Source: an uncultured Lachnospiraceae bacterium (GTDB lineage: Bacteria; Bacillota; Clostridia; Lachnospirales; Lachnospiraceae). Taken from it: DNA of 55,141 nt. The position numbers and the translations under genes were made by a program. The notes under the pieces are model-generated. The model had not been told where the DNA came from and did no database searches. It saw only the letters and a program-made list of their open reading frames with translations. Shown one piece after another: positions 2,444 to 52,462 of this stretch. The first letter of the stretch is position 1; every line of letters begins with the position of its first letter. The DNA is taken from positions 1 through 55,141 of the forward strand of contig CACZBZ010000032.1 of assembly GCA_902779505.1 (NCBI GenBank). The letters run 5' to 3'.

Positions 2444-3732
2444 TTAATACTGCTGAAGTAATTCTATGGGGTACTAGAATAGGTATTGTTCATCAGGATA
2501 ATGATAAACCATATGTTTCATTTGAATATGACAGAGAATTTATAAAAAGTGGAATAGAACTTTCGCCGATAAAGCTTAAACTGAGTGGGCAGGTGTATGA
2601 TTTCCCGGATCTTGTGGGAGATGCGTTTCATGGAGCTCCCGGTCTTATTGCTGATTCGCTTCCGGACAAATTCGGTAACAAAGTGATTGAAAGATGGCTT
2701 ATAGAGCAAGGACGTACTCTTAGTGATTTTAATACAATTGATAGACTGTGCTATACGGGCGTGCGCGGAATGGGAGCATTAGAATACAGACCGGTTGCAG
2801 GCCCGCAATATCGTTTAGACGAAGATATCAATATTGAAAAAATGGTAGATTTTGCGTCTAAAGTGCTGTCTGATAAGGAAAATCAAAAGATTAGTTCGGA
2901 AGAGGAAATAGGCTATAGTCAGCTGGTACAACTTGGAACCTCAGCCGGAGGAGCCAGAGCAAAAGCCCTTATAGCATGGAATAAAGATACTAATGAGATA
3001 AAAAGTGGACAGATAGATGCAGGGGATGGCTTTGAGTATTGGTTAATCAAATTTGATGGGGTTGATAAAAACGGAGATCATAATCTTAAGGATTCTGTTG
3101 AATATACCAGGATAGAATATGCATATTATCTTATGGCTGTAGATGCGGGTATTGTGATGGAAAAATGCAGCCTACTTGAAGAAGACGGTCGATATCATTT
3201 TATGACAAAGCGCTTTGACAGGATGGGGAATCAGAAGATGCATATGCAGACCTTGGGAGCTCTAACACATATAGATTATAATTATCCCGGTCTATGTAGC
3301 TATGAACAGGCGGCGAGTGTATTAAAGCAAATCAATCCTTCAATGAAAGATGTGGAGGAATTATACCGAAGAATGGTATTTAACGTAATTATGGTCAATC
3401 AGGATGATCATGTAAAGAATATATCGTTCCTAATGGATAGGAATGGTTCTTGGAAACTTGCTCCGGCGTATGATATTACATTTTCATATAACCTTAACAA
3501 TAGATGGTTAAAGGCTCATCAAATGCTGGTTAATGGAAAAGCGGATAACATAGTCGTTGATGATTTAATTGCAGCCGGAAAAAGTATGGGGATATCATCT
3601 GTAAAATGTAACAGAATAATTGATGAAATTGCCATTGTATCAAATAATAAAGAACGATATTTTGAAAAGGCCGGCGTACGAGAAAAAACATATAACGAAA
3701 TTGCTAAGATAATAAATGATCATTCTACTTAA
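2440..3732 (+). CDS. hipA: HipA-family Ser/Thr kinase toxin
   Basis: A 430-residue protein with the HipA N-terminal domain (about 1-110) and kinase-like C-terminal domain. Visible motifs are the glycine-rich loop GTSAGGARAKALI (near residue 168, containing the serine that HipA proteins autophosphorylate), the lysine strand YWLIKFDG, the catalytic NQDDHVKN (about 319-326) and the metal-binding AYDITFS. E. coli HipA phosphorylates glutamyl-tRNA synthetase and induces dormancy; the target here is unknown. All motifs look intact, so the toxin should be active. It overlaps the 3' end of the convergent apbE homology region by 8 bp. Confidence 0.92.
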   Translation: MINTAEVILWGTRIGIVHQDNDKPYVSFEYDREFIKSGIELSPIKLKLSGQVYDFPDLVGDAFHGAPGLIADSLPDKFGNKVIERWLIEQGRTLSDFNTIDRLCYTGVRGMGALEYRPVAGPQYRLDEDINIEKMVDFASKVLSDKENQKISSEEEIGYSQLVQLGTSAGGARAKALIAWNKDTNEIKSGQIDAGDGFEYWLIKFDGVDKNGDHNLKDSVEYTRIEYAYYLMAVDAGIVMEKCSLLEEDGRYHFMTKRFDRMGNQKMHMQTLGALTHIDYNYPGLCSYEQAASVLKQINPSMKDVEELYRRMVFNVIMVNQDDHVKNISFLMDRNGSWKLAPAYDITFSYNLNNRWLKAHQMLVNGKADNIVVDDLIAAGKSMGISSVKCNRIIDEIAIVSNNKERYFEKAGVREKTYNEIAKIINDHST

Positions 3733-3768
3733 TGCTTTTGAAGATATTATTGCTGTCGTCAATGAGTA

Positions 3769-4872
3769 TCACTTCGATACTGTTGTCGGCAGCATATTTT
3801 TTTGCCTGCTCGTAGCCCATAGAGAAAAGATAAGGTCGAGGATGTGGTGGTATATGTGGCCGTTTTCCTCGAAATATCTCTCGTAGATGCCTGATGTGAC
3901 TATGGCTTTGTCTGAAGAGGATACTTTATCTATCAGCTGTCCTTGGGGAGCGAAAGGTTCCTGAATGCCGGTTGTAAAAGGTCCGCCTATATATATGTTG
4001 TCTCCTCCAAGGGAGATGATGGCTTTGCTTATTCCCTGTTCAAGAAGATAATCCTTTATCCTGTCTCCAATATATCCCTTGGCAAATCCTCCCATATCGA
4101 TCATTGTATCCGGATCTTCAAAGAAGACTCGATTATCTGTATCGAGGCGTATCTTTTTATAGGATACGGTTGATAGGGCTTTGTCTATGTCGGCAGAGGA
4201 GGGCACAGTGTTATCACAACTGTCGGTGAAGTTCCAAAGAGTAGTAAGACTTCCGATGCTGATATCGAATGCACCGTCAGACATTTTGCTGTAAGTAAGG
4301 CCTTCTTCGAGCATTTCATAGAGCTTATCAGACACTGTATAGGACCCGTCAGCATTAGCGGAAATTAATCTATGATTTAATTTATAGAGTTCACTAGACC
4401 CTGATGTTCTGCTGCAGACGGCTTCATATTTGTCACAGATTTCCATACAACCGTCCAGAATTTTTTCATCCGAGCTATCATATATTTTTACCGAGACGAT
4501 TGTTCCCAATTTGAAATCCGTCTTTGAGATGGGATCGGATTCTCCTTCAATCAGAACCGACAATTTGTTCGGAAGACATACAATCGATTCTCCGGATTTT
4601 GAGATGGCACCCTGAGACTCGCAAAGATGATCCGGACAATCCGAATCTTTCATATAAACTTTGTTGTTTTCAATAACGACTGTATTTTTATCAAGCTCAA
4701 TTGTGGCATCTTTATGCAGGTCATAGCGACCATATTCTTCCCCTGCAAGGTTGATGACAACATAAGCTGCTTCACCCTTGTTCATGCTGCTCTTTATTAA
4801 AAATGATACAGCAATCAATATTAAGATGGACAAAATGACTGTAATATCTGATTTCTTCATACTTTTTAGCAT
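3769..4872 (-). CDS. apbE: NusG domain II - ApbE fusion (FAD:protein FMN transferase), C-terminus disrupted
   Basis: An N-terminal membrane anchor (about 8-27) is followed by a NusG_II domain (about 30-110, with CPDHLCESQG and a GESIVCLPN strand), then an ApbE domain (about 118-345) with DGAFDISIG, DMGGFAKGYIGD and ISLGGDN. ApbE moves FMN from FAD to a threonine in SGAT-type motifs such as those of RnfD and RnfG, outside the membrane. The frame ends with about 26 unrelated residues after HHILD. In another frame, FSMGYEQAKKYAADNS and a normal ApbE end continue to a TAG at 3725-3727. The missing block, about 35 residues by family comparison, should hold the D-x-x-S-T metal-binding motif. The product as written is probably inactive. 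Confidence 0.85.
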   Translation of the reverse strand: MLKSMKKSDITVILSILILIAVSFLIKSSMNKGEAAYVVINLAGEEYGRYDLHKDATIELDKNTVVIENNKVYMKDSDCPDHLCESQGAISKSGESIVCLPNKLSVLIEGESDPISKTDFKLGTIVSVKIYDSSDEKILDGCMEICDKYEAVCSRTSGSSELYKLNHRLISANADGSYTVSDKLYEMLEEGLTYSKMSDGAFDISIGSLTTLWNFTDSCDNTVPSSADIDKALSTVSYKKIRLDTDNRVFFEDPDTMIDMGGFAKGYIGDRIKDYLLEQGISKAIISLGGDNIYIGGPFTTGIQEPFAPQGQLIDKVSSSDKAIVTSGIYERYFEENGHIYHHILDLIFSLWATSRQKNMLPTTVSK

Positions 4873-4900
4873 ACCATATGATTCTATAATATGGTAGAAT
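4873..4900. promoter_or_regulatory. Divergent apbE / Gx-transporter control region with a palindrome
   Basis: Only 35 bp separate the two divergent starts. ACCATAT (4873-4879) and ATATGGT (4889-4895) form an inverted repeat, an operator candidate. TATAAT at 4885-4890 and TAGAAT at 4895-4900 are possible -10 boxes for the rightward gene; no convincing -35 was found. TAGAAT would place transcription start at or next to the ATG at 4908. Confidence 0.4.
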
Positions 4901-4907
4901 AATAACC

Positions 4908-5387
4908 ATGAAAAAGCTTGCTTATACGGGGTTGCTTACAGCCCTGGCACTGATTTTAGGATATCTGGAATCCCTGATACCACCGATCGTTCCTGTGCCC
5001 GGCATTAAGATGGGCTTTGCCAATATTGTAGTGGTTTTCACACTTTACAAGATAGGCGTTAAGGAAGCGGTTATGGTGAATATTGTCAGAGTCATTGTAT
5101 CGGGGCTTCTTTTCGGGACTATGTTCTCTCTGGCTTACAGTATGGCCGGGGCTGTTCTTAGTCTTATTATCATGTGCATTTTATATAAGAAGACAGACCT
5201 TGATGTGGCCACTGTCAGTGTATGCGGTTCCATTATGCATATAATCGGACAGGTCGCTGTGGCTATAATCGTTGTCGGTTCGGCATCCATTATCTCAATG
5301 CTGCCGTTTTTGCTGCTGTCAGCTTTTATTATGGGAGCCATTATAGGCCTGCTTGCCAAGATCCTTATGGACAGAATAAGGGTTTGA
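4908..5387 (+). CDS. Gx transporter family membrane protein (Hpre_diP_synt_I family)
   Basis: A 159-residue, almost wholly hydrophobic protein with about five membrane segments. Family hallmarks are the start MKKLAYTGLLTALALILGYL, VPGIKMGFANIVV and a conserved GLLFGTMFSLAYSMAGA stretch. It is annotated variously as heptaprenyl diphosphate synthase component I or Gx transporter. In many Clostridia it neighbours NusG_II and ApbE proteins, as it does here, which suggests a role in flavin or redox-factor handling at the membrane rather than isoprenoid synthesis. No Shine-Dalgarno sequence precedes the ATG, so translation may be leaderless. Confidence 0.85.
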   Translation: MKKLAYTGLLTALALILGYLESLIPPIVPVPGIKMGFANIVVVFTLYKIGVKEAVMVNIVRVIVSGLLFGTMFSLAYSMAGAVLSLIIMCILYKKTDLDVATVSVCGSIMHIIGQVAVAIIVVGSASIISMLPFLLLSAFIMGAIIGLLAKILMDRIRV

Positions 5388-5450
5388 CATGCTATGGTGC
5401 AGTATTTATAATATCTTTTGGTAATTTAGGATTAATTTGGGAGGCAATTG

Positions 5451-8105: not shown

Positions 8106-8134
8106 CCCATATTTTACAGTCGAACAATAAAATG

Positions 8135-8162
8135 TTGACTTAATCAAAATTTTAAGTATAAT
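8135..8162 (+). promoter_or_regulatory. Sigma-A promoter for rpsU
   Basis: TTGACT (8135-8140) and TATAAT (8157-8162), 16 bp apart, are close to consensus. Transcription would start near 8169, leaving a leader of about 73 nt before rpsU. Confidence 0.75.
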
Positions 8163-8198
8163 AATAAGCGTATGTGGCGCTAAAAGCACATATAATAA

Positions 8199-8230: not shown

Positions 8231-8241
8231 TCGGGAATTAG

Positions 8242-8418: not shown

Positions 8419-8423
8419 TGAGT

Positions 8424-8456: not shown

Positions 8457-8501
8457 AAATATTTGAGCGTTGGTTTTTTGTATTTTTGCTTTGGAGGAAG
8501 T

Positions 8502-9374
8502 ATGAATCTGCTTATTTCCATTGTAATGGGCCTTATATTGGCTGCTTTATTTGTCATATGTCTTGATGTTAACAGGTTTGTGGTGCGCGACTATACCATC
8601 TATTCCGATAAGGTGGACAGAGAGTACAAGATTGCGCTCCTTGCTGACATGCATAACAAGGAATACGGCAAAGACAACTACAAACTGATCTCGGCCATTA
8701 AGGATATGAATCCCGACATGGTATGCTGTGCGGGAGATATTCTTACCGCCAGACCGGGCAAGGATACCTCGATTGCTCTTAAGCTCTTCAAATATCTTAA
8801 GAACTACAAGGTCTATTATTCCCTCAGGATGAAGATATATGAAGACAGATATCCCGGACTCTATGAAGACTACGCTGAAAAGCTGAAAGAAGACGGGGTT
8901 ATCCTTCTTGAGAACGATCATGCCTACTTCCCAAACAGTAATATAAGAATTCAGGGCCTGATGATAGACAGGGAATATTACAAGAGATTCGACAATGTTC
9001 ACATGACCGGTGAATACGTGGACGGACTTATTAGGTCAGGTTCCAATGTTGACAGTTATAAGAACGAGAGCGGCAGAGAAGATTACTGTATTTTACTGGC
9101 TCATAATCCGGAGTTTTTTGAATCTTATTGTGAAAGCAACGCGGATCTTATATTTGCGGGACACAATCACGGCGGTATTGTGAGGCTTCCGTTAATTGGC
9201 GGACTCATAAGTCCCAAGCTTTCACTTTTTCCAAAATACGACGGTGGCATCTATAATGAAGGAATCAAGACCATGGTCCTCAGCCGAGGCCTTGGAAGTC
9301 ACACTATTCCCGTGAGATTTTTCAATCCCGGAGAACTCATCTGTGTGCACCTTTGCCCTTGCAAAAAGGACTGA
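8502..9374 (+). CDS. Membrane-anchored metallophosphoesterase lacking its GNHE motif
   Basis: A 290-residue protein with one N-terminal membrane segment (about 3-22) and a calcineurin-like phosphoesterase domain. Motifs present: ADMHN (D-x-H), AGDIL (GD), LLAHNPEF and AGHNHGG (GHxH). ATG 8502 was chosen over GTG 8418 because GGAGG lies just upstream and the GTG is inside the rpsU terminator region. The GNHE motif expected between the GD and AHN motifs is absent: the sequence runs NYKVYYSLRMKIYED, where relatives read about five more residues containing GNHE. That motif supplies metal-binding Asn and the catalytic His, so the protein as written should be inactive. The gap keeps the frame. Confidence 0.85.
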   Translation: MNLLISIVMGLILAALFVICLDVNRFVVRDYTIYSDKVDREYKIALLADMHNKEYGKDNYKLISAIKDMNPDMVCCAGDILTARPGKDTSIALKLFKYLKNYKVYYSLRMKIYEDRYPGLYEDYAEKLKEDGVILLENDHAYFPNSNIRIQGLMIDREYYKRFDNVHMTGEYVDGLIRSGSNVDSYKNESGREDYCILLAHNPEFFESYCESNADLIFAGHNHGGIVRLPLIGGLISPKLSLFPKYDGGIYNEGIKTMVLSRGLGSHTIPVRFFNPGELICVHLCPCKKD

Positions 9375-12780: not shown

Positions 12781-14160
12781 ATGAGTACTACAACCCAAGC
12801 AAGCCAGAGAATAGCTTCTCTGCTTGATGACAACAGCTTTGTTGAAATCGGTGCTAAGGTTACAGCAAGAGCAACTGACTTCAATCTTAAAGCTACAGAC
12901 ACTCCATCTGACGGCGTAGTTACCGGTTATGGTGTGATTAATGACAATCTTGTGTATGTTTACGCCCAGGATCCTTCTGTTTTAGGCGGAAGTATCGGTG
13001 AGATGCATGCAAAGAAGATTGCTAATCTGTATGACATGGCACTTAAGATGGGTGCACCTGTTATCGGAATTATTGATTCTACAGGCTTACGTCTGCAGGA
13101 GGGCGTTGATGCCCTTGACGGTTTCGGCGAGATCTTTGCCGCACAGTCACTTGCATCAGGCGTTATTCCTCAGATTACAGCTGTATTTGGTAATTGCGGC
13201 GGTGGTTTATCAATGATCCCTGCACTTTCTGACTTCGTATTTATGGAGAAAGATGCAAAGATGTTTGTTAACTCACCTGATGCCATTGATGGCAACAACG
13301 CTGCAAAGTGTGATACATCAGCTTGTACATTCCAGGCTGAGGAAGCAGGAAATGCCTCTGTCGTTGCTGATGAAGCAACTATATATGCACAGATCAGAGA
13401 GCTTGTTTCTTTACTTCCCGGTAACTGTGAGTCTACAGCATTTGCTGATTGTGATGATGATCTTAACAGAGCAGCTGCAGATATCGCTTCATTCGTAGGC
13501 GGTGATATCGCAGGTGCTGTTGCAGCTATCGCTGACAACGGAAGTGTATTTGAGTCTAAGGCTGATTTTGCCAAGGATGTATTCACAGGACTTATTAAGC
13601 TCAACGGAGATACAGTAGGAGTTATCGCAAATAACGATACAGCCATTACTGCCAACGGTGCAGCAAAGGCTGCTGATTTTGTTGAATTCCTTGATGCATT
13701 TGAAATTCCTGTTCTTACTCTTACTAATGTAGAGAAGTTCAAGAACTGCATGTGCTGTGAAAAGAGATTCGCAAGAGAAGGCGCTAAGCTTACAGCTGCT
13801 TTCGCCAACGCAACAGTTCCCAAGGTTAATGTTATCGTAGGTAAGGCATTCGGAACACCCGGTGTGATGATGAATTCCAAGGCTCTCGGAGCTGACATGA
13901 CATTTGCATGGGCTGATGCAAAGATCGGTATGATCGATTCTAAGTATGCCGCTCAGGTTATCGCAGGCGATAAGGGCGATAAGGATGCGGTTGCAAAAGA
14001 GTATGATGCTCTTCAGAACAGCGTAGACGCTGCTGCAAGAAGAGGATATGTTGATACAATCATTAACGCCGAGGATACACGTAAGTATGTTATCGGTGCT
14101 TTTGACATGTTATATACAAAGGCCGTTGATACACCGGCTAAGAAGCATACCACAAAATAA
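12781..14160 (+). CDS. Carboxyltransferase subunit (MmdA / 12S type) of a biotin-dependent decarboxylase
   Basis: A 459-residue crotonase-fold carboxyltransferase in two halves. IGEMHAKKIANLYDMALKMG and DSTGLRLQEG in the first half, and GVMMNSKALGADMTFAWADA in the second, match acyl-CoA carboxyltransferases of the MmdA/12S group; NCGGGLSMIPALSDFVFME forms an oxyanion loop. It exchanges a carboxyl group between a CoA ester and biotin on the carrier protein. Methylmalonyl- or malonyl-CoA are candidate substrates; sequence alone does not decide. First gene of a five-gene operon ending at 18005. Confidence 0.88.
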   Translation: MSTTTQASQRIASLLDDNSFVEIGAKVTARATDFNLKATDTPSDGVVTGYGVINDNLVYVYAQDPSVLGGSIGEMHAKKIANLYDMALKMGAPVIGIIDSTGLRLQEGVDALDGFGEIFAAQSLASGVIPQITAVFGNCGGGLSMIPALSDFVFMEKDAKMFVNSPDAIDGNNAAKCDTSACTFQAEEAGNASVVADEATIYAQIRELVSLLPGNCESTAFADCDDDLNRAAADIASFVGGDIAGAVAAIADNGSVFESKADFAKDVFTGLIKLNGDTVGVIANNDTAITANGAAKAADFVEFLDAFEIPVLTLTNVEKFKNCMCCEKRFAREGAKLTAAFANATVPKVNVIVGKAFGTPGVMMNSKALGADMTFAWADAKIGMIDSKYAAQVIAGDKGDKDAVAKEYDALQNSVDAAARRGYVDTIINAEDTRKYVIGAFDMLYTKAVDTPAKKHTTK

Positions 14161-14946: not shown

Positions 14947-15312
14947 ATGAAGAATTATACAATTACAGTTAATGGCAATGTATATGATGTAGTAGTTGAA
15001 GAAGGAGCTACAAGCGGAGCAGCTGCTCCCGTTGCAGCACCTAAGGCAGCTCCCAAGGCAGCACCCAAGGCAGCTCCCAAGGCAAGTGCAGGCGCAGGCA
15101 GCATCAAGGTTGAGGCCGGTGCAGCAGGTAAGGTATTCAAGATTGAAGCAGGCGTTGGAACAGCAGTTAAGAAGGGTGATGCGGTAGTTATCATCGAGGC
15201 AATGAAGATGGAGATTCCTGTTGTTGCTCCCGAAGACGGAACAGTAGCAAGCATTGATTGTGCTGTTGGTGATGCAGTTGAAGCAGGCGCATGTCTTGCA
15301 ACACTCAACTAA
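14947..15312 (+). CDS. Biotin carboxyl carrier protein of the decarboxylase
   Basis: A 121-residue protein: N-terminal strand (1-20), a flexible Ala/Pro/Lys linker (about 25-47, repeats of AAPK), then a biotinyl domain with the attachment motif EAMKMEIP (Lys in the second half of the protein). It carries carboxyl groups between the two carboxyltransferases and the membrane beta subunit. Its stop at 15310-15312 is in the same frame as the beta-subunit coding region that follows. Confidence 0.95.
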   Translation: MKNYTITVNGNVYDVVVEEGATSGAAAPVAAPKAAPKAAPKAAPKASAGAGSIKVEAGAAGKVFKIEAGVGTAVKKGDAVVIIEAMKMEIPVVAPEDGTVASIDCAVGDAVEAGACLATLN

Positions 15313-15369
15313 TTAAACAATCTTGTTCACCAGACAGCGTTCTTTAACCTGACCTGGGGAAATTATGTA

Positions 15370-18725: not shown

Positions 18726-19570
18726 TTGGATAATTCATTTGATGTAATTCAGATAATTGATGAAAGATATCCCAAGATGAGCAAAGGCCACAAGGCTAGG
18801 TGCCGAGCTTATGATCAGTGAATCTACTGTTGTAAGATTTGCTTCAGGCCTTGGTTATGCGGGTTTTCCTGATTTTCAGAAAAACCTTGCGGACTGGGTT
18901 AAGAATAAGCTTAATACGGTTGAGAAAGTGGGCGCAAAATACGGCCACAGTTCACAGTCCGAAGTGCTTAAGTCAGTGTTAACGGGTGATATTGATAAGG
19001 GATGTTTTCGACAGGGCCGTTGATACCATTTTGGGTGCGAGAACCGTATATATCATGGGACTCAGAAGCTGTGCACCTTTGGCTGAGTTTTTGAACTTTT
19101 ACCTGAACATGGTTAGAGATAATGTGGTGCTTCTCAATACCACAAGTATCAGCGAGACCTTTGAGCAGATGATCCGTATCAATGAGAAGGACTGCTTCAT
19201 CGGTATCAGTTTCCCCAGATATTCCATGAGAACCTTGAAGGCACTGGAATTCGCTTCCGACAGGAATGCGAAAGTTCTGTCCATCACGGACAACGACCAT
19301 TCGCCCATGTGTCTCTATTCATACTGCAATCTCTTTGCCAAGAGTGACATGGTGTCCATAGTTGATTCTTTGGTGGCACCCCTCAGTATCATCAATGCTT
19401 TGGTGGTTGCCCTTTGTCTTAAGGCTCCCGAAGCTGTCAGGAACAATCTTGAGACTCTGGAAGAGGCTTGGAGCAATTATCAGGTATATCTCAACGACGA
19501 GATCAACTTCATCGACGATGAGCCTATGCTTGATTACAGTCTCACAAGAGATCTGCTTAAGAAGGATTAA
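18726..19570 (+). pseudogene. RpiR-family regulator broken by two missing blocks
   Basis: Three frame-shifted pieces read in order as one RpiR protein. Piece 1 starts at TTG 18726 (FDVIQIIDERYPKMSKGHK). Piece 2 (about 18799-19003) gives LGAELMISESTVVRFASGLG, the helix-turn-helix. Piece 3 (about 19004-19570) is a complete SIS domain (YIMGLRSCAPLAEF to the end at LLKKD). Between pieces 1 and 2 about 20 residues typical of the family are missing; between 2 and 3 about 8-10. Both losses change frame. RpiR proteins sense sugar phosphates or related ligands and bind DNA; as written this one cannot be made whole. TTG is the only start candidate. Confidence 0.8.
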
Positions 19571-19572: not shown

Positions 19573-20847
19573 ATGCATAATTGCGTGGTTTTGGGCGGAG
19601 GTGCCGCCGGTATGATGGCCGCAATCGCGGCAGCCGAAGCAGGCGCCAAAGTCACTTTGATAGAAAAAAACGAGAAGCTTGGGAAAAAGGTATATATCAC
19701 GGGTAAGGGCAGATGTAATGTAACCAATGACTGTGATGCCGATACTTTTTTCGCAAATGTTGTCTCCAACAGAAAGTTCTTATACAGTGCTTTTTATTCT
19801 TTTGACAACAACATGCTTATGGAGCTTGTGAAAGATAACGGATGTCCTCTTAAGACCGAAAGAGGCGGCAGGGTTTTCCCGGTAAGCGACCATTCTTCCG
19901 ATGTCCTTAAAGCTCTTAACAAGGCTATTAAAGATGCCGGTGTCGAAGTGCTTCTTAATCACGAAGCAAAGGATGTAGTTGTTGAAGAAGCGGAAGGCAT
20001 TAAGCGTGTTAAAGGACTTTTGCTTAAAAACGGCAAGACTCTTCCCTGCGACAGTCTGATTATGGCTACGGGAGGTCTGTCATATCCCTCGACAGGTTCC
20101 ACGGGAGACGGCCACAGAATCCTTAAGAAGCTTGGTCACAGCATTACAGAGATGCATCCCGGTCTGGTGCCTTTCAATGTCGAGGAATCCGTATGCGGTG
20201 AACTGCAGGGCCTGGCTCTTAAAAATGTGAGTCTTAAGATGTACAACAGTTCGGAAGAGCAGGGCAAAAAGAAAAAGCCTGTCTACGATGGTTTCGGCGA
20301 GATGCTTTTTACCCACTTCGGAATCAGCGGTCCGCTGGTTCTCAGTTGCAGTGAATTTTATGACGCATCAGGGGGCGCGAAGAAGGACATATTGATTGAC
20401 CTGAAACCTGCTCTTGATACGGATACGCTGGATAAAAGAATCCTCAGGGATTTTGATGAGAATAAAAACAAGAGTTTTAAGAATTCCATATCCGGACTTC
20501 TTCCTTCCAGGATGATACCGCTTATCATATCCATGTGCGGTATTGATCCCGACAAGGCTGTCAATGAGATAAGCAGAGAAGAAAGAACGGGACTTGTGCA
20601 TTTGCTTAAGAATTTCCCTCTTACGGTTACGGGAACCAGGGATTACAACGAAGCAATCATCACAAGAGGAGGGGTGAGTGTTAAAGAAGTGGACCCTTCC
20701 ACAATGGAATCGAAACTAATCGATGGATTATACATATGCGGCGAGATGCTGGATCTGGATGCAATGACGGGAGGTTTTAATCTCCAGATCGCCTGGTCCA
20801 CGGGACATCTTGCGGGAAGCAGTGTTATGGAAAAGGAGAGATTATGA
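19573..20847 (+). CDS. HI0933-family FAD-dependent oxidoreductase
   Basis: A 424-residue flavoprotein. The N-terminal Rossmann motif VVLGGGAAGMMAAIAAAEAG binds FAD; TGKGRCNVTND, TGGLSYPSTGSTGDGH and the C-terminal GGVSVKEVDPSTMESK and GEMLDLDAMTGGFNLQIAWS are hallmarks of the BaiN/HI0933 family. Substrate is unknown; relatives include putative bile-acid-modifying or tRNA-linked enzymes. It overlaps cmk by 4 bp (ATGA), so the two are translationally coupled. Confidence 0.92.
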   Translation: MHNCVVLGGGAAGMMAAIAAAEAGAKVTLIEKNEKLGKKVYITGKGRCNVTNDCDADTFFANVVSNRKFLYSAFYSFDNNMLMELVKDNGCPLKTERGGRVFPVSDHSSDVLKALNKAIKDAGVEVLLNHEAKDVVVEEAEGIKRVKGLLLKNGKTLPCDSLIMATGGLSYPSTGSTGDGHRILKKLGHSITEMHPGLVPFNVEESVCGELQGLALKNVSLKMYNSSEEQGKKKKPVYDGFGEMLFTHFGISGPLVLSCSEFYDASGGAKKDILIDLKPALDTDTLDKRILRDFDENKNKSFKNSISGLLPSRMIPLIISMCGIDPDKAVNEISREERTGLVHLLKNFPLTVTGTRDYNEAIITRGGVSVKEVDPSTMESKLIDGLYICGEMLDLDAMTGGFNLQIAWSTGHLAGSSVMEKERL

Positions 20848-25455: not shown

Positions 25456-25549
25456 ATCTTAACATATATATCTAAAAATCAGTAGTTTTTTGTATAAAAA
25501 AATAGTAAAATTGTACATAGGTGTATTGCTATAGAAAGGACGTATTTGT

Positions 25550-26869
25550 ATGTCTAAATTATCATTTACCGGAGGAATTCATCCTTATGACGGCAAAGCC
25601 TTAAGTATGGAACTTCCTATTCGGGACGTGTTGCCAAAGGGGGAACTTGTTTACCCGGTAAGCCAGCATATCGGCGCGCCGGCAGTGCCTGTTGTTAAAA
25701 AAGGCGACAGGGTATTAAGAGGTCAGCTCATTGCTGAAGCCGGAGGATTTGTATCCGCACCGGTCTATTCATCCGTATCCGGAACGGTTAAAGCCATTGA
25801 ACCGCGAAGGGTAGTCACAGGAGACAGTGTTGACAGTATCATCATCGAAAATGATGAGATGTATGAAGAAGTTCAGTACGATGCTGTGGACGACGTCTCA
25901 ACTCTCACCAAAGAAGAAATAATTGAAAGGGTTAAGAAGGCAGGTGTTGTCGGAATGGGCGGCGCAGGATTCCCTACGCATGTTAAGCTGTCGCCTAAGG
26001 ATCCGGGTGCCATTGAATATGTCATTGCCAACTGTGCCGAGTGTGAGCCTTATCTTACAAGTGATTACAGAAGAATGATTGAAGAGCCTGAGAAACTTGT
26101 GGAAGGCCTGAAGATCATGCTGATGCTCTTTGACAATGCCAAAGGTATTCTGGCGGTGGAAGACAATAAGCCCAAGGCCATTGCAAAGCTTAAGAGACTT
26201 ACAAAGAATGACCCTCATATACTTGTGAAGACATTGCAGACCAAGTATCCTCAGGGCGCTGAGAGACAGCTCATCTTTGCTACCACAAAGAGAGCCATCA
26301 ATTCAACAATGTTGCCGGCGGATGCGGGATGTATCGTTGATAACGTGGATACGGTTGTTGCAATATATAACGCAGTTAAGAACGGCAAGCCTCTCATGGA
26401 GAGAATAGTTACCGTTACCGGCGACTGCATTAGAAAGCCTCAGAATTTCCGTGTACATACAGGTATGATGTACAGCGAACTGATAGAAGAAGCAGGTGGA
26501 TTCAAGGTTGAACCCGAGAAGATAGTATCCGGCGGACCCATGATGGGCTTCGGACTGTTCGATCTCAATGTTCCCACCACCAAGACGGCTTCGGCTCTTC
26601 TCTGTATAGCAAAAGACGATGTTTCCAGAATGGAGACCACGGCCTGCATCAACTGCGGAAGATGTTTGGAAGTTTGTCCCGGAAGAGTAATGCCGAGAAA
26701 GCTTGCGGATCTGGCTGAAAAAGGCGATTTTGAAGAGTTTGAAAAATTCAACGGACTTGAGTGTTGCGAATGCGGCTGCTGTTCATATGTATGTCCCGCA
26801 AAACGACCTCTTACCCAGTCCATAAAATCAGCAAGAAAGATAGTTCTTGCCAATAAGAAGAAAAAATAG
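25550..26869 (+). CDS. rnfC: Rnf complex subunit C
   Basis: A 439-residue protein. Residues 1-100 form a barrel-hybrid domain (GGIHPYDGK at the start); GVVGMGGAGFPTHVKL binds FMN/NADH; two 4Fe-4S sites are CINCGRCLEVCP and CCECGCCSYVCP. RnfC docks NAD+/NADH at the cytoplasmic side of the Rnf ion pump, which couples ferredoxin oxidation to NAD+ reduction and Na+ or H+ export. First gene of the rnfCDGEAB operon, GAAAGGA upstream. Confidence 0.97.
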   Translation: MSKLSFTGGIHPYDGKALSMELPIRDVLPKGELVYPVSQHIGAPAVPVVKKGDRVLRGQLIAEAGGFVSAPVYSSVSGTVKAIEPRRVVTGDSVDSIIIENDEMYEEVQYDAVDDVSTLTKEEIIERVKKAGVVGMGGAGFPTHVKLSPKDPGAIEYVIANCAECEPYLTSDYRRMIEEPEKLVEGLKIMLMLFDNAKGILAVEDNKPKAIAKLKRLTKNDPHILVKTLQTKYPQGAERQLIFATTKRAINSTMLPADAGCIVDNVDTVVAIYNAVKNGKPLMERIVTVTGDCIRKPQNFRVHTGMMYSELIEEAGGFKVEPEKIVSGGPMMGFGLFDLNVPTTKTASALLCIAKDDVSRMETTACINCGRCLEVCPGRVMPRKLADLAEKGDFEEFEKFNGLECCECGCCSYVCPAKRPLTQSIKSARKIVLANKKKK

Positions 26870-29152: not shown

Positions 29153-29619
29153 AAGTTTGTTAATTATTCTTGTTGGATCATCACTTGCAAGCAACGTTGT
29201 CCTGAGTCAGTTTTTAGGACTTTGTCCTTTCCTTGGTGTATCCAAGAAGATCAACACGGCTGCCGGAATGGGCGGTGCCGTAATATTTGTTATTACTCTT
29301 TCCAGTGCGGTTGCAGGAGTAATATATAAGTTCATATTGCAGCCTCTTAACCTGGAATACCTTCAGACTATAGTATTTATTCTGGTTATAGCAGCTCTGG
29401 TTCAGTTCGTTGAGATGTTCTTGAGAAAGTTCATCCCCGGCCTTTAACGGTTTTGCCACTGCGGTTGGTTTTACAATCTCAATCGTGCTGCTGGCCGGTA
29501 TCAGGGAAAAGATGGAGGACAATGACGTTCCCGCAGCCCTTAAGGGTATGCCTATCGTTCTTGTAACAGCAGGACTTATGGCTATTGCTTTCTGTGGCTT
29601 CGGAGGACTTAGTTTCTGA
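29139..29619 (+). pseudogene. rnfA: Rnf complex subunit A, interrupted by a missing block
   Basis: ATG 29139 (GAGGAGGA upstream) opens SLLIILVGSSLASNVVLSQF, FLGLCPFLGVSKK and four segments, and stops at 29447 after VEMFLRKFIPGL. From about 29441 another frame continues with NGFATAVGFTISIVLLAGIR and ends normally at TGA 29617-29619. Both halves are ordinary RnfA. The total is about 95 bp shorter than the usual 190-residue gene; the missing middle corresponds to the ALGIYLPLITTNC-type segment of relatives. A functional RnfA is essential for Rnf, so either this sequence lacks bases or the pump is dead. Confidence 0.88.
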
Positions 29620-29630: not shown

Positions 29631-30383
29631 ATGATTACGAGTATTTTAATTGCTGCCGCGCTGATCGGCGGCGTGGGATTATTTGTGGGTCTGTTTCTCG
29701 GAATTGCAGGTATCAAATTTGCGGTTGAGACGGATCCTAAGGAAGAAGAAGTGCTGAATGCCCTTCCCGGCAACAATTGCGGCGGATGTGGTTTCGCCGG
29801 CTGTGCCGCTCTTGCTACGGCTATAGCAAAGGGTGAAGCTCCGGTTAATGCCTGTCCTGTAGGCGGTGAGCCCGTAGGCAAAGCAATCGGTGAGATAATG
29901 GGCATTGAAGCAGAGGAAAAAGAGAGAATGGTTGCCTTTGTTAAATGCCAGGGAGACTGTGACAAGGCCAAGACGGACTATGAATACACAGGTGCGGAAG
30001 ACTGTGCCATGTTATCATTTGTTCCTAACGGTGGTCCCAAGAGCTGTAATTACGGCTGTCTGGGCTACGGCAATTGTGTTAAGGCATGTCCTTTTGACGC
30101 AATACATGTTGTGAACGGTATTGCGGTAGTAGATAAGGAAGCATGTAAAGCCTGCGGTAAATGCGTGGCTGCATGTCCCAAGAATCTTATCGAACTGGTG
30201 CCTTACAAGGCTAATGTCTTCGTATCATGTAATTCTCAGGCCAAGGGCCCTGTTGCCATGAAAGCCTGCGATACAGCCTGCATAGGATGCGGAATATGTC
30301 AGAAGAACTGCGATTATGATAAGTGTATAGGATGTGGAAGTTGTGTAGAAAAATGTCCTAAGAAAGCGATTATCAAGTCTTAG
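29631..30383 (+). CDS. rnfB: Rnf complex subunit B, ferredoxin-like; one inter-cluster linker missing
   Basis: A 250-residue protein: one N-terminal membrane segment, an Fe-S domain with NNCGGCGFAGCAALATAI, then cysteine motifs YGCLGYGNCVKACPFDAI, ACKACGKCVAACP, ACIGCGICQKNC and CIGCGSCVEKCPKKAI. It takes electrons from ferredoxin. Only four residues (DYDK) lie between the last two cysteine motifs; relatives have about 18-20, including an AI-type stretch. The frame is kept, so the protein is made but the last two clusters could not pack normally. Confidence 0.94.
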   Translation: MITSILIAAALIGGVGLFVGLFLGIAGIKFAVETDPKEEEVLNALPGNNCGGCGFAGCAALATAIAKGEAPVNACPVGGEPVGKAIGEIMGIEAEEKERMVAFVKCQGDCDKAKTDYEYTGAEDCAMLSFVPNGGPKSCNYGCLGYGNCVKACPFDAIHVVNGIAVVDKEACKACGKCVAACPKNLIELVPYKANVFVSCNSQAKGPVAMKACDTACIGCGICQKNCDYDKCIGCGSCVEKCPKKAIIKS

Positions 30384-33923: not shown

Positions 33924-35248
33924 TTATCTGTCTTCGATTGAGATGTATTTTTGGTCTTCACAAAGTGTCATGTAAGCGGGACGGATAATCTTGCCGTTGT
34001 TGCTTAATTCTTCGATTCTGTGAGCTGACCATCCGGATATCCTTGCCATGGCAAAGAGAGGAGTGTAGAGCTCCAGAGGAAGTCCTAACATGTTGTAGAC
34101 CAGACCGGAATAAAAGTCCACGTTGATACATACACCCTTGTACATCTTACGCTCGGAAGCGATGATCTCCGGAGCAAGTTTTTCAACTGCAGAATAGAGT
34201 TCGTATTCCTTGTGCATGCCCTTTTCTATAGCCAGTTTATCAACAAATCCCTTAAGGACTTCGGCTCTTGGATCGGACTTGGAATAGATGGCATGTCCTA
34301 CACCGTATATAAGACCTGCTTTGTCAAAAGCTTCGCCGTGCAATATCTTTCTCAGATAATCCGCAACCTGTCCTTCATCGGACCAGTCTTTGATGTTCTT
34401 CTTCATATCCTCAAACATCTGAACAACCTTGATGTTGGCACCGCCATGACGAGGTCCCTTAAGGGAACCGATGGCTGCTGCCATAACGGAATATGTATCG
34501 GTCATTGTTGAAGATACAACATGGGTGGTGAAAGAAGAGTTGTTACCACCACCGTGCTCCATATGAAGAACTCGGAATCGGGTCTTAATATATGGAGGAT
34601 GTTCTCCGCTGTTGTAAGTCCCGGTCCGGGCTGATGGATGATAAGGCTTTCGCCGTCGTGATAGTGTCTGTAAGCCTGGTATCCGTATATTGATAACATG
34701 GGGAAAAGGCTTATCAGCTGAAGACACTGTCTTAAGACATTTGGAATGCTTACGTCATCTTCAAAATCATCATAAGAATAGAGTGTAAGCACACTTCTTG
34801 CCAATGTGTTCATCATATCTCTGGAAGGTGCCTTCATAATAATGTCTCTGACAAAATTCGTGGGCAGACTTCTGTAATGCTCGATAAGGGCAGAGAATTC
34901 GGCAAGTTCTTCTTTATTGGGGAGTTCACCGAAAAGAAGAAGATAGGTCGCCTCTTCAAAGCCGTATTTACGGCCGTTGGCAAAACCTGCGCAGAGGTCT
35001 TTTACATCATAGCCTCTGTATGTAAGAACGCCGTAATCGGGTACACGTTCCCCGTTGACGTCTTTATATGCTCTTACATCGGAAATATAAGTAAGACCTG
35101 CGAGAACACCTCTGCCGTTGAGGTCACGTAGGCCGCGTTTTACGTCATATTTAGTGTAGAGTTCCGAATCGATAAGGTCGTGCTTAGCACATTTGTCAGC
35201 AAGTCTTACGATGTCCGGAGTGATTTCTGAATAAATGTTGTGATCCAA
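33924..35248 (-). pseudogene. Citrate synthase broken by a missing block
   Basis: N-terminal piece 35248 down to about 34572: LTYRGYDVKDLCAGFANGRK, FGELPNKEELAEF, then HDGESLIIHQP and TAENILHILRPDSE. C-terminal piece from about 34571 down to 33924 in another frame: VLHMEHGGGNNSSFTTHVVS (active-site His), YGVGHAIYSKSDPRA and a normal end (KYISIEDR). About 13-14 residues expected between RPDS and VLHMEHG are missing, a loss not divisible by three. It would condense acetyl-CoA and oxaloacetate, feeding glutamate synthesis. The rest is well conserved, which argues against old decay. Confidence 0.9.
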
Positions 35249-37390: not shown

Positions 37391-39052
37391 ATGTTAAAAC
37401 GAGTATTAAAAGAAGTAAAAGAATATAAGGGAGTATCTATTGCGACTCCGGTCTGTATGATTGTGGAAGTCATCATGGAGATGATCATCCCTTATCTTAT
37501 GGCTTCAATCATTGATAAAGGTATCAATGTTGAAGGCGGTGATATGAATCACATTCTGAAAGTGGGTGCCCTTATGCTTCCCGTTGCGGCAGTGGGACTG
37601 CTTGCGGGCTTGTTGGGAACCGCCGGTCTTGTTACAAGACTTACAACGGATGTGAGCACTTTGCAGATGGGTTATCAGATGTGCTTAAGAATGATGTTTC
37701 GAGCACCCATAAGCATGGTGGTCGCTCTTTGCATGGCGTTTTTTATCAATGCCAGAATTGCAAGCATTTATCTTGTTGCGGTTCTAATGCTTGGCTTTGT
37801 TCTTTTTCTTATTCTCAAAAGAGCAACGAAGTATTTCAAGGAAGCTTTTCCCAAATACGACAAACTTAATGAGTCCGTTCAGGAAAATGTATCAGCCATC
37901 AGAGTCGTTAAAGCCTATGTCAGAGAAGACTGGGAGATATCAAAATTCAAGAAGGCTTCGGAAGGTATCTATAAGATATTTACCAAGGCCGAAGGTACAA
38001 CCATATTCCAGATGCCTGCCATGAATCTGACGGTATACACCTGTATTTTGCTGATATCATGGATCGGTGCAAAGATGATCGTAGCCGGCAGTCTTACAAC
38101 AGGTGAGCTTATGAGCCTGCTTGCATACTGTATGAACATCCTTATGAGTCTCATGATTTTCTCATTCATGTTCGTAATGATATCAATGGGTTCAGCCGCA
38201 ATCACAAGAGTATATGAGGTACTTGAGGAGAAGAGTTCGCTGGATAATCCCGAGAACCCTGTATATGAGATTAAGGATGGTTCGGTTGATTTTGAAGATG
38301 TCTACTTTGCTTACAATAAAGAGGCAAAAGAACCCGTGCTTAAGGATATTGACCTGCACATTGACAGCGGAGAGATGGTGGGAATCATCGGTGCCACCGG
38401 TAGTGCCAAGACATCTTTGGTTAATCTTATAAGCCGTCTCTATGATGTGACGGGCGGTTCCGTTAAAGTTGGCGGAAGAGATGTAAGAGAATACGATCTT
38501 CAGACTCTGAGAAATAAGGTCTCGGTTGTGCTTCAGAACAACACCCTTTTCTCAGGCAGCATATATGACAATTTAAGATGGGGCAATAAGGACGCAAGCG
38601 ACGAAGAGTGCAAGGCTGCATGTAAGATTGCCTGTGCGGATGATTTTGTGGAGAATTTCCCCGACAAATATGACACTCATATCGAGCAGGGCGGAAGCAA
38701 TGTGTCCGGCGGTCAGAAGCAGAGACTCTGTATCGCACGTGCTCTGCTTAAGGAGCCGAAGATTCTTATTCTGGATGATTCCACATCGGCGGTTGATACC
38801 GCTACGGATGCAAGGATAAGAAAATCCTTCAGGGAAGACATACCTAATATTACGAAATTCATTATTTCTCAGAGAGTAAGTTCAGTTATGGATTCTGACC
38901 ATATTATCGTTATGGAAGACGGTCAGATCAACGGCTTCGGCACACATGACGAGCTGATGAAGACCAATGAGATATACAGAGAATTATATGAATCTCAGAC
39001 CCAGAACGGTGGAGATTTTGATGAAGTAAATACAGCAAAGGAGGACAAATAA
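37391..39052 (+). CDS. ABC exporter subunit 1 with an internal membrane-domain gap
   Basis: A 553-residue TMD-NBD protein. NBD motifs: Walker A GATGSAKTSL, Q-loop VVLQNNTLFSG, signature NVSGGQKQRLCIARALL, Walker B ILILDDSTSAVD (Asp after Walker B instead of Glu, the degenerate site usual in one half of heterodimers), H-loop replaced by ISQRVSS. Between GLLAGLLG and TAGLVTRLTTDV about 35 residues normal in this family (end of segment 2, first intracellular loop, FSFSNIDKFS-type motif) are missing in frame, and only about five of six segments remain. Pairs with the next gene. Confidence 0.9.
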   Translation: MLKRVLKEVKEYKGVSIATPVCMIVEVIMEMIIPYLMASIIDKGINVEGGDMNHILKVGALMLPVAAVGLLAGLLGTAGLVTRLTTDVSTLQMGYQMCLRMMFRAPISMVVALCMAFFINARIASIYLVAVLMLGFVLFLILKRATKYFKEAFPKYDKLNESVQENVSAIRVVKAYVREDWEISKFKKASEGIYKIFTKAEGTTIFQMPAMNLTVYTCILLISWIGAKMIVAGSLTTGELMSLLAYCMNILMSLMIFSFMFVMISMGSAAITRVYEVLEEKSSLDNPENPVYEIKDGSVDFEDVYFAYNKEAKEPVLKDIDLHIDSGEMVGIIGATGSAKTSLVNLISRLYDVTGGSVKVGGRDVREYDLQTLRNKVSVVLQNNTLFSGSIYDNLRWGNKDASDEECKAACKIACADDFVENFPDKYDTHIEQGGSNVSGGQKQRLCIARALLKEPKILILDDSTSAVDTATDARIRKSFREDIPNITKFIISQRVSSVMDSDHIIVMEDGQINGFGTHDELMKTNEIYRELYESQTQNGGDFDEVNTAKEDK

Positions 39053-39053
39053 T

Positions 39054-40946
39054 ATGCCGGGACCTTCAAGAGTACAGCGTGGCCTTAAGCCTACGGTTGA
39101 TAATCCGGGTAAGGTATTTGGCCGCCTTATAAAATACATATTCAAGGACTTTGGTCTGCATTTTATTGCGGTGTTCGTTCTGATTGGAATCAATGTGCTC
39201 GCAAGTGTAAGAGGAACGCTTTTTACCAAGAGCCTTATTGATGATTACATTACACCTTTTCTTTTGAACACAGACAATCCGGATTTCGGACCCTTGGCTC
39301 ATGCCATTATGAAAGTGGCCTGCTTCTACGGAATAGGTGTTGTCGCCGTGTTTATTCAGGGCAAGCTGATGATTAAGATCAGTCAGGGTGTCCTTAAGAA
39401 CCTGAGGGATGATATGTTTTCTCATATGGAGAAGCTTCCCATCAAATATTTTGATGTGCACAGTCACGGTGACATAATGAGTATGTACACCAATGACGTT
39501 GACACATTAAGACAGGTTGTGAGCCAGACCATACCGCAGTTTGTCAATGCTGCCATCACTATTGTGAGCGTATTTATCAGTATGGTTATTTTAAGTGTTC
39601 CCCTTACGCTGGTTACGCTTTTTATGGTCTTTGTTACCATGTTTATTACAGCGAAGAGCGGTAAAATGTCCGGTAAATATTTCATGCAGCAACAGGCCAA
39701 TCTCGGTAAGACCAACGGTTATATCGAAGAGATGGTTAACGGTATGAAGGTTGTAAAAGTCTTCTGCCATGAAGAGATATGCAAGGAAGAATTCAATGTT
39801 CTGAATGAAGAACTTTGTGAGTCGGCTGACAAGGCCAATAAATACTCCAATGTTATCGGACCTGTCAATGCGCAGATCGGTAATATCAGTTACGTGCTCT
39901 GTGCCGTATTCGGTGGAATTCTTGCGATCAACGGATGGACGGGACTTACCCTTGGTGGACTGGCCAGCTTCCTGACTTTTAACAAGAGCTTTAACATGCC
40001 CATTAATCAGATATCCATGCAGATAAGCTCAATCGTTATGGCCCTTGCGGGTGCTGACAGAGTCTTCAAGCTTTTGGATGAAGATGTGGAAGTAGATGAC
40101 GGTTATGTCGTTTTGGTCAATGTAAAAGAAGAGAAGGGTGAGATTGTTGAGACCGATGAGCATACGGGCAGATGGATGTGGAAACATTATCACCACGAGA
40201 CCGGCGAGACCGAATACAAGGACTGGGAAGGCGGAGTTGTATTTGACGGAGTGGACTTCGGATACAATGACGACAAGATGGTTCTTCATGATATTCAGAT
40301 GTTTGCCAATCCGGGTCAGAAGATTGCTTTTGTCGGTTCAACCGGTTCCGGCAAGACTACAATAACCAATCTTATCAATCGTTTCTATGATATTCAGGAC
40401 GGCAAGATAAGATATGACGGTATTAATGTAAATAAGATCAAGAAAGCTGACCTCAGAAGGTCGCTTGGCGTAGTGCTTCAGGATACCCACCTCTTTACTG
40501 GCACAGTTGCCGACAATATCAGATACGGTAAGCTTGATGCCACTGATGAGGAAGTAATTAAAGCTGCCAAGCTTGTGAGTGCTGACTCTTTTATCCGAAG
40601 ACTGCCTCAGGGCTACAACACAATGCTTACGGGCGACGGAGCCAACTTAAGTCAGGGTCAGAGACAGTTGCTTGCCATTGCAAGGGCGGCCATCGCGGAT
40701 CCTCCGGCTCTTATTCTTGATGAGGCTACATCCAGCATCGATACCCGTACCGAGCGTATCGTTCAGGAAGGTATGGATGCTCTGATGAAGGGCAGAACCA
40801 CTTTTGTTATCGCCCACAGATTGTCTGCGGACTGTATCATGGTTCTTGAAGACGGTCGCATAATCGAGCGTGGAACTCACGATCAACTGCTTGAAGAGAA
40901 GGGCAAATATTATCAGTTATATACCGGCAATTCGATGGCTGTGTGA
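39054..40946 (+). CDS. ABC exporter subunit 2
   Basis: A 630-residue TMD-NBD protein starting 2 bp after its partner, with AAAGGAGG. Walker A GSTGSGKTTI, signature NLSQGQRQLLAIARAA, Walker B ALILDEATSSID with the catalytic Glu, H-loop AHRLS. An insert before the NBD (DEHTGRWMWKHYHHETGETE) is common in Lachnospiraceae exporters. After AHRLS the near-universal TVRN (or similar) is missing and the chain goes straight to ADCIMVLEDG, a 12-bp in-frame loss. The heterodimer probably exports drugs, lipids or peptides; substrate unknown. Confidence 0.93.
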   Translation: MPGPSRVQRGLKPTVDNPGKVFGRLIKYIFKDFGLHFIAVFVLIGINVLASVRGTLFTKSLIDDYITPFLLNTDNPDFGPLAHAIMKVACFYGIGVVAVFIQGKLMIKISQGVLKNLRDDMFSHMEKLPIKYFDVHSHGDIMSMYTNDVDTLRQVVSQTIPQFVNAAITIVSVFISMVILSVPLTLVTLFMVFVTMFITAKSGKMSGKYFMQQQANLGKTNGYIEEMVNGMKVVKVFCHEEICKEEFNVLNEELCESADKANKYSNVIGPVNAQIGNISYVLCAVFGGILAINGWTGLTLGGLASFLTFNKSFNMPINQISMQISSIVMALAGADRVFKLLDEDVEVDDGYVVLVNVKEEKGEIVETDEHTGRWMWKHYHHETGETEYKDWEGGVVFDGVDFGYNDDKMVLHDIQMFANPGQKIAFVGSTGSGKTTITNLINRFYDIQDGKIRYDGINVNKIKKADLRRSLGVVLQDTHLFTGTVADNIRYGKLDATDEEVIKAAKLVSADSFIRRLPQGYNTMLTGDGANLSQGQRQLLAIARAAIADPPALILDEATSSIDTRTERIVQEGMDALMKGRTTFVIAHRLSADCIMVLEDGRIIERGTHDQLLEEKGKYYQLYTGNSMAV

Positions 40947-47487: not shown

Positions 47488-47502
47488 TATTAGGAGGCAA
47501 TT

Positions 47503-49929: not shown

Positions 49930-49943
49930 AGGGAGGATTATTA

Positions 49944-50285
49944 ATGAACGAAGAAAAACGTAAAGCCGAAAGAACTGAGCTTTCCAGCAAGCTTATTATC
50001 AAGCAGCTTAACGGTAACTCTGAAGCTAGAGAAGTTGCCATTGAGATCAATGACGTTTCTAAGAACGGTGTTGGTTTTACTTGTACAGAGAAGCTGGAGA
50101 TCGGTGCTGTATACGAAGGCTTTCTTACTATCTGGACAAAGGAAGTTATCCATTGTTTCATTGAGATCGTAAGAATCATTAAGAAAGATGACACATTTGA
50201 TTACGGCGCTATTTTCATCGGCATGCCGGAAATGGATACCCAGAGAATTGAGATATATCAGACAATCTCAAATAACGTTAAGTAA
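49944..50285 (+). CDS. PilZ-domain c-di-GMP receptor
   Basis: A 113-residue single-domain protein. RKAER (R-x3-R) at the N-terminus and NDVSKNGVGF (N-x-S-x2-G) are the two c-di-GMP-binding motifs. It probably relays the signal made by GGDEF enzymes such as the one at 11331. GGGAGG precedes the ATG; 11 bp before manC. Confidence 0.9.
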   Translation: MNEEKRKAERTELSSKLIIKQLNGNSEAREVAIEINDVSKNGVGFTCTEKLEIGAVYEGFLTIWTKEVIHCFIEIVRIIKKDDTFDYGAIFIGMPEMDTQRIEIYQTISNNVK

Positions 50286-50296
50286 TTAATAATTCT

Positions 50297-52462
50297 ATGA
50301 AGTGTTTGATACTTGCAGGCGGAAGAGGCGACAGAATGTGGCCTCTTTCAAGAAAAAACAACCCTAAACAGTTCATACCGATCAAAAACAAGCATTCCAT
50401 ATTTCAGGAGACGGTTGCCAGAAATATGGCTTTTTGTGATGAATTCATAATAGCATCAAGCACTGACTACGAATCCATAATCGAGAATCAGATGAAGTCC
50501 TTCAGAGGACTTACCTACAGATGTATCTATGAAGGTATTGGGAAAAGTACCACCATGCCTGTCATTATGGCAGCGTTGTCACTTCCCCAGTCGGAGATGC
50601 TTTTTGTTGTATCATCGGATCATTTGATAAGCGGAGAATCCTACAAGGACGACATCATCAGAGCCAAGAATCTGGCCAAAGAAGGTGCTCTCGTCAGCTT
50701 TGGTATGGGGATGTTCCTTTTCAATGTGGGTGATTTTATCAATGAGATAAGACTGAAAGCTCCCGATATATATGAAAAGTGTGCCAAGAGCTATGTTAAG
50801 AGAGAAGTTGTCGGTAATAAGGTATACTACGGCGCAGAGGAACTTGAGGATATCCCTTCAAAATCCATAGAATCCGCTCTTTTTGAGATAAGTGACAAGA
50901 CAAAAGTAATCGAGTCCGAATTCGAATGGAAAGATGTGGGCAGTCTTGATGACCTTGATCATATCGATGCCATATGCGAGGGCGCTGATCAGGTTATCGA
51001 TAATAAATGTGTCAATACAACCGTTGTCAATCAATCCGAGAAAAAGCTGGTATTGGTCAACCATCTTAAGGACGTTATGGTTGTAAATACCGACGACGCC
51101 ATTTATATAGGCAACAAGGGAGATTCCAACGACCTTAAGCAGATCATCCGTGCTTCAAAGAGCATGTGGGGATATTTCGACAGAAGTTCCGTATTCTACA
51201 GAACCTGGGGTGAATTCCATCTTCTGGAATCCAATCCGGATGTGGGATACCAGGTAAGAAAAGTTGAGGTATTACCGGGCCGTACAACCCTTCTTCAGGC
51301 TCATAAGAACAGGAAAGAGAATCTTACCATCGTATCCGGTACAGGCAGGGCTCTTATCGGAGGTATGGTTTTTACCGTATCGGCTGGTGATACGCTTACT
51401 GTAGGATATAATGTTGAACATCAGATATCATGTACAAGTGATGAATCTCTGGTCTACATAGAGACTGATTTCGGAAAAGAACTTAAGATTGAAGATTTTC
51501 AGTCTGAAAAAAATAAAGCAGTGCCGTCGGCTGTCAATCTGGGATATGAGATTGAACCATTCTATAAGCTGTCTCCCTCTTATAAGGATTATATCTGGGG
51601 TGGCACCAAGCTCAGAGATGTGTACGGCAAAGAATGTGATTATGATGTTATAGCCGAGAGCTGGGAACTGTCAGCTCATCCGGACGGACAGAGCATAGTG
51701 GCATCAGGCAGGTTCAAGGGTATGCCTTTCGGAGAATTCCTAAGAACCATAGGCGATGAGAATCTGGGCTGGAAATATTCCGGCGGAAGAGCTTTCCCTC
51801 TTTTAGTAAAACTCATCGATGCCAAAGAAGATCTGTCTATCCAGGTTCATCCCGATGACGAATATGCTCTTGAGCATGAGAATGAATACGGCAAGAGCGA
51901 ACTCTGGTATATCCTGTCTGCAGAGGAAGGTGCATGCCTCTACGTGGGCTTCAAGGAAGATACTGACAAGAAGAAAGTAAAGCAGGCTGTTGCCGATGGA
52001 AGCATTATGCCTATGCTTAACAAGATAGAAGTGAAGGCGGGAGAGAGTTATTACATTCCCGCAGGTACGGTACATGCCATAGGAAAAGGCTGTTTGATAT
52101 GTGAGATTCAGCAGAATTCCAATACCACTTACAGATTGTACGATTACGATCGTGTGGACAAATACGGCAACAAACGTAAGCTGGATATCGAAAAAGCCCT
52201 TGATGTCATCGATTATTCAAAATATAAAGGCAACAAAGAATGCAAATATTTTGAATGCAACATGGTGGAAGTTAAAAAGAGCCACAACATCAAGATGAGT
52301 ACCGAATCCTTCTGTGCACTGATGTTTGTTGAAGGTTCTGGCCGAATATCATGCAATGATTATGAGATGGATATTCAGAAGGGTGACTGCATATTTGTTC
52401 CCAAAGGCGAAGGTGTCTTGAAAGTTAAAGGCAGTCTGAAGATGATATTATCCAAATTATAG
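50297..52462 (+). CDS. Fused mannose-1-phosphate guanylyltransferase / mannose-6-phosphate isomerase, with an internal gap
   Basis: A 721-residue fusion. Residues 1-280: nucleotidyltransferase (CLILAGGRGDRMWPLSRKN, VVSSDHLI, FEWKDVGSLDDL). About 290-400: cupin of the ManC type (WGEFHLLESNPDVGYQVRKV, LQAHKNRKEN). About 415-721: class I phosphomannose isomerase (KDYIWGGTKL, LVKLIDAKEDLSIQVHPDD, YIPAGTVHAIGKG). Together they turn fructose-6-P-derived mannose into GDP-mannose for surface glycans. After GALVSFG the chain jumps to MGMFLFNVGDF; about 45-50 residues normal in ManC, including the EKP substrate motif, are missing in frame. The guanylyltransferase should not work as written. Confidence 0.92.
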   Translation: MKCLILAGGRGDRMWPLSRKNNPKQFIPIKNKHSIFQETVARNMAFCDEFIIASSTDYESIIENQMKSFRGLTYRCIYEGIGKSTTMPVIMAALSLPQSEMLFVVSSDHLISGESYKDDIIRAKNLAKEGALVSFGMGMFLFNVGDFINEIRLKAPDIYEKCAKSYVKREVVGNKVYYGAEELEDIPSKSIESALFEISDKTKVIESEFEWKDVGSLDDLDHIDAICEGADQVIDNKCVNTTVVNQSEKKLVLVNHLKDVMVVNTDDAIYIGNKGDSNDLKQIIRASKSMWGYFDRSSVFYRTWGEFHLLESNPDVGYQVRKVEVLPGRTTLLQAHKNRKENLTIVSGTGRALIGGMVFTVSAGDTLTVGYNVEHQISCTSDESLVYIETDFGKELKIEDFQSEKNKAVPSAVNLGYEIEPFYKLSPSYKDYIWGGTKLRDVYGKECDYDVIAESWELSAHPDGQSIVASGRFKGMPFGEFLRTIGDENLGWKYSGGRAFPLLVKLIDAKEDLSIQVHPDDEYALEHENEYGKSELWYILSAEEGACLYVGFKEDTDKKKVKQAVADGSIMPMLNKIEVKAGESYYIPAGTVHAIGKGCLICEIQQNSNTTYRLYDYDRVDKYGNKRKLDIEKALDVIDYSKYKGNKECKYFECNMVEVKKSHNIKMSTESFCALMFVEGSGRISCNDYEMDIQKGDCIFVPKGEGVLKVKGSLKMILSKL

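Follow-up and report, generated by a model that had tools for sequence, protein, structure and literature searches.

Pseudogene decay in reduced genomes produces short internal losses in genes, some of which break the reading frame. Artificial frame breaks also arise from the indel errors of long-read assemblies, and short-read scaffolds can contain gaps of wrong estimated size. For the latter case, the Meraculous paper states that the read pairs spanning a gap must exceed its length, so that naive estimates need correction (PMC3158087). Negative gap estimates appear as a known situation in the same paper and in the RegScaf paper (PMC3158087; PMC9326850), and BESST also belongs to the gap-size literature (PMC4262078). 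Among papers judged by title and abstract, we found none on point for such losses in metagenome genomes.

We analyzed the window, which is the whole of contig C32 (55,141 nt), from the draft genome of a gut bacterium of the Lachnospiraceae (G000; 2,223,175 bases or 2.22 Mb, 115 contigs, 83.66% complete). Like short-read scaffold gaps of wrong estimated size, the losses in this genome are short stretches missing at apparent joins, and runs of N are shorter than the true gap; unlike in such scaffolds, the joins mostly carry no N. Short internal losses, some of them frame-breaking, are shared with pseudogene decay, but here essential single-copy genes are hit, microhomology is lacking, the flanks are conserved and indels of 1-2 nt are not in excess. 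Artificial frame breaks are the likeness to long-read indel errors, from which the losses differ by their size of 12-132 nt.

Blocks missing from genes of the window

Each gene of the window was aligned at the DNA level with syntenic stretches from relatives, all of them Lachnospiraceae. When 19 congeners and the genome itself were searched, the best identity to the closest relatives among the matches listed was 77% over matches of more than 600 nt and 81% over 255 nt. The full-length alaS genes of congeners were 73-80% identical to that of G000. In the multi-gene alignment run rnfA was merged with rnfE, and rnfA was therefore aligned apart. The following junctions were found, with the number of relatives that carry the block:

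3832..3838, minus strand, apbE (NusG_II-ApbE protein): about 85 nt missing, frame broken
8824..8827, plus strand, metallophosphoesterase: 15 nt missing, in frame; 6 of 6 relatives
13634..13635, plus strand, carboxyltransferase gene: 42 nt missing, in frame; 11 of 11 relatives
15310..15318, plus strand, biotin-carrier gene/oadB: about 68 nt missing, counted by eye
18797..18799, plus strand, rpiR-type regulator, junction 1: 59 nt missing, frame broken; 6 of 6 relatives
18999..19001, plus strand, rpiR-type regulator, junction 2: 29 nt missing, frame broken; 6 of 6 relatives
20389..20390, plus strand, HI0933-like flavoprotein gene, doubtful junction: 18 nt, in frame; 6 of 6 relatives
29443..29446, plus strand, rnfA: 107 nt missing, frame broken; 8 of 8 relatives
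30310..30312, plus strand, rnfB: 42 nt missing, in frame; 8 of 8 relatives
34568..34577, minus strand, citrate synthase: 40 nt missing, frame broken; 9 of 9 relatives
37611..37619, plus strand, ABC exporter subunit 1: 105 nt missing, in frame; 7 of 7 relatives
40824..40826, plus strand, ABC exporter subunit 2: 12 nt missing, in frame; 7 of 7 relatives
50702..50705, plus strand, manC: 132 nt (44 codons) missing, in frame; 1 of 1 relative (G001)

An earlier note, made from the sequence alone, had listed eleven junctions at which conserved genes would each have lost one internal block. The alignments confirmed that sequence is missing relative to the relatives at all eleven. The description as an internal block did not hold for oadB, where the junction (~15313) removes the spacer after the biotin-carrier gene together with the oadB start codon and first codons. 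The list was incomplete in that it missed the carboxyltransferase gene junction at 13634.

At the apbE junction one relative spans both sides: residues 1-164 of the G017 protein match 4323-3838 and residues 195-220 match 3832-3758. The ORF matches of seven further relatives end at 3835 or before the C-terminus. The product of this gene (3769-4872 of the window) is a fusion of a NusG_II domain with an ApbE domain. This fusion is not private to the genome, as ORFs of 426-461 aa from G003, G006 and G008 match most of its length.

The block missing from the metallophosphoesterase is its GNHE-type motif, and that of ABC exporter subunit 2 sits just behind the H-loop. In-frame losses, too, would therefore probably spoil function. 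The metallophosphoesterase also has an in-frame insertion of 27-30 nt at 9036, present in none of the compared relatives. The candidate gaps at 20389, 36279 and 36481 lie where the relatives vary in length or diverge, and these gaps may be natural. In the gene matching 25544-26863 of the window, a stretch from one relative (L036) has a private in-frame gap of 165 nt at the place corresponding to 26124.

For the count of private gaps, a gap had to be present in G000 alone and filled in every aligned relative (6-11 relatives per gene), and seven gene rows with one relative only were left out. Nine blocks of at least 10 nt were missing from G000 alone in 31.4 kb (12-105 nt; at 8824, 13634, 18798, 18999, 20389, 30311, 34577, 37617 and 40825), compared with 4 for all 20 relatives combined, in 216.8 kb (P ~4e-6). 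Four losses come in addition to the nine counted: rnfA (107 nt), manC (132 nt), apbE (~85 nt) and the oadB start (~68 nt). Private insertions of at least 10 nt showed no excess (2 in G000, 13 in the 20 relatives). Changes of 1-2 nt private to G000 amounted to 0 deletions and 1 insertion in the 31.4 kb. Because private deletions of 1-2 nt were absent, we do not attribute the losses to base errors of long reads.

Of the 13 window losses, 7 are in frame (4.3 expected, P = 0.10), the oadB start being scored among those that are not; when the doubtful place at 20389 is set aside, the figure is 6 of 12 (4 expected, P = 0.18). Selection for frame is thus not proven, with the limit that these numbers have little power. 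A small number of the window losses could be natural in-frame changes. The apparent completeness of alaS, pheT and the EF-G paralogue, to which the earlier note had pointed, is not informative: with about 1.9 junctions expected in these genes, the chance of finding none is 0.15.

Losses in the rest of the genome

About 811 kb of the genome were read as 45 stretches, window included. We applied a symmetric frame-break test, in which ORFs of at least 150 aa from 14 congeners were compared with all stretches, and an event was scored where adjacent matches lay in different frames with a loss of at least 8 nt. G000 had 12 such events in 157.0 kb, and the 14 congeners had 0 in 575.9 kb. One of the 12, on C27, was dropped as a false call, since its query was an antisense ORF over a spacer. 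The 11 kept losses still differed clearly from the 0 in congeners (P = 4e-8). Four of them lie in the window and seven outside (two each on C70 and C13, one each on C4, C5 and C36). The seven losses outside the window, in about 120 kb, are a test independent of the window finding (P = 5e-6; P = 1.5e-4 for the five without N runs). The losses were thus confined to one assembly, on C32, C70, C13 and C4, plus the N runs on C5 and C36.

In congeners the test responded to an 8-nt excess at an 11-N run (G001), a 34-nt excess (G009) and a 2-nt shift (G007). The 11-N run of G001 lies inside a carboxylase-type gene (L114:9271) and makes it 8 nt too long; it is a gap estimated too large. On C13 of G000 one gene has a 33-nt loss and, about 290 nt further on, a frame break at which it carries 7 extra nt relative to two relatives (L168:3718).

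Nearly all bacteria require IF-2 and NusA. On C70, infB lacks 52 nt and nusA lacks 73 nt relative to 6 of 6 relatives each, and in both genes the frame is broken. A second copy of infB or nusA was not found in the G000 assembly: the IF-2 domain was matched once and NusA only as two broken halves. Likewise, the assembly yielded no intact rnfA or citrate synthase gene, but two broken halves of each, plus the related rnfE in the case of rnfA. The losses are thus blind to function, as essential genes are hit and 6 of the 13 window losses are not in frame.

The rpoB, rpoC and ribosomal genes compared on C27 showed no kept frame break. In rpoC (C27, ~24451) there is a private in-frame insertion of 57 nt that is absent in three relatives, and near the variable end of the gene a 24-nt gap, in frame; a 16-nt gap lies behind another gene of C27.

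The losses were distributed unevenly per aligned kb (C32, 4 in 35.4; C70, 2 in 5.2; C27, 0 in 17.4; C20, 0 in 14.5), and this counts against an artefact. So does a pairwise run over 20 other stretches, mostly against one relative, in which the excess was weaker: G000 had 24 gaps, 15 of them in frame, and the relative had 16, of which 7 were in frame. These pairwise gaps on other contigs were excluded from the counts, since they are unpolarized against a single relative.

Character of the junctions and runs of N

Thirteen junctions (nine in C32, two in C70, two in C13) were examined. No microhomology was seen when they were judged on the letters of one relative each (mean 0.38 nt, compared with 0.75 nt at random cuts). 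The missing blocks were as conserved among the relatives as the genes (0.667 vs. 0.679, P = 0.50), and conserved blocks as preferred targets were therefore rejected. At each junction, the 21-mers to the left, to the right and across it were found a single time in about 806 kb of G000. The junction flanks are hence not repeated there, and an assembly break caused by repeats does not fit them. In the relatives the G+C content of the missing blocks was about 0.42, compared with 0.44 for G000 genes, and it was lower in 9 of 13 cases, although this does not compare like with like.

The sizes of 15 losses (mean 53, SD 36) fitted an exponential distribution with a shift of 12 (P = 0.89), whose mean was estimated from the same data; apbE, oadB and the single-relative cases from other contigs were left out of this fit. 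Random placing together with exponential lengths is what would be expected for chance gaps in read coverage.

The G000 stretches read contain four N runs of 11-30. Two of the four lie inside genes with a relative for comparison. On C5, 30 N stand between matching halves of a gene from which 136 nt net are missing (two relatives); on C36, 21 N stand between matching halves with 64 nt net missing (one relative). Since sequence is net missing at these places, the N runs most probably mark assembly gaps and not withheld letters. Sequence thus falls short at the gaps marked by the assembly just as it does at the unmarked junctions. A fixed shortfall per join was rejected by the two different values. 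Removal of all Ns from the scaffolds was not complete, as four runs remain. Shorter contigs tend toward later positions in the contig order, with long ones in between; the order was dropped as a sign of joined pieces, as loss-free pieces of C32 and C70 mismatch their rank.

Origin of the losses and meaning for the organism

We consider it very likely that the missing blocks are an artefact of assembly, as the earlier note had also favored. This reading is supported by frame-breaking losses on several contigs, including those in infB and nusA, by the absence of such losses from 14 congeners in the same test, by the blunt junctions and by the two junctions with N runs. Short-read contigs would have ended at brief unsequenced gaps, where local coverage was presumably thin, and read pairs or a comparable step would then have linked the contig ends. 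At gaps with an estimate of zero or less, the ends would have been set directly together and the block lost; where the estimate was positive, too few Ns would have been inserted. Most junctions carry no N, so that the joining step itself is not visible, which counts against this explanation, as does the in-frame share of 7 of 13, somewhat above one third.

If the lineage were decaying or prone to deletion, real losses made by slippage or end joining under relaxed selection would explain why the blocks are absent from the assembled consensus and why the in-frame share is slightly above one third. We regard such deletions as very unlikely, since infB and nusA are broken with no second copy found, and the junctions lack the microhomology that slippage or microhomology-mediated joining would leave. 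The well-conserved flanks and the absence of private 1-2 nt deletions are also unlike general decay, and the pattern of pseudogene decay, with dispensable genes hit first and several kinds of damage together, was not seen. A mixed population, in which part of the cells carry short forms that the assembler chose, is still harder to accept. It would require each of many independent losses, on several contigs, to be frequent, and cells with broken infB and nusA would die. The parts that rnfA, nusA and citrate synthase lack did not turn up at other places of the assembly either. A deletion-prone genome and a mixed population, the more exciting options of the earlier note, thus received no support, as only broken halves of rnfA, nusA and citrate synthase are present and the IF-2 domain is found once.

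Natural in-frame indels of the lineage, wrongly pooled with the rest, fit the doubtful places at 20389, 36279 and 36481. As an account of the losses they are just as improbable as a mixed population. They are refuted for the frame-breaking set, in which losses of 29, 40, 59, 107, 52 and 73 nt each have one size relative to all 6-9 relatives, and losses also lie in strongly conserved stretches. That the short forms are truly present in most cells, rescued by full copies outside the assembled part or by compensation at the RNA or protein level, we consider extremely improbable.

An assembly artefact means that the losses hold no biological novelty; their use is as a caution about protein predictions from this genome, since most joins carry no N as a warning. 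Counting frame breaks against congeners is a cheap way to spot such assemblies. In the living organism the genes are most likely of full length. The phosphoesterase, the ABC exporter, RnfA, RnfB, citrate synthase, NusA and IF-2 look truncated or motif-less in the assembly, and they are very probably intact in the organism.
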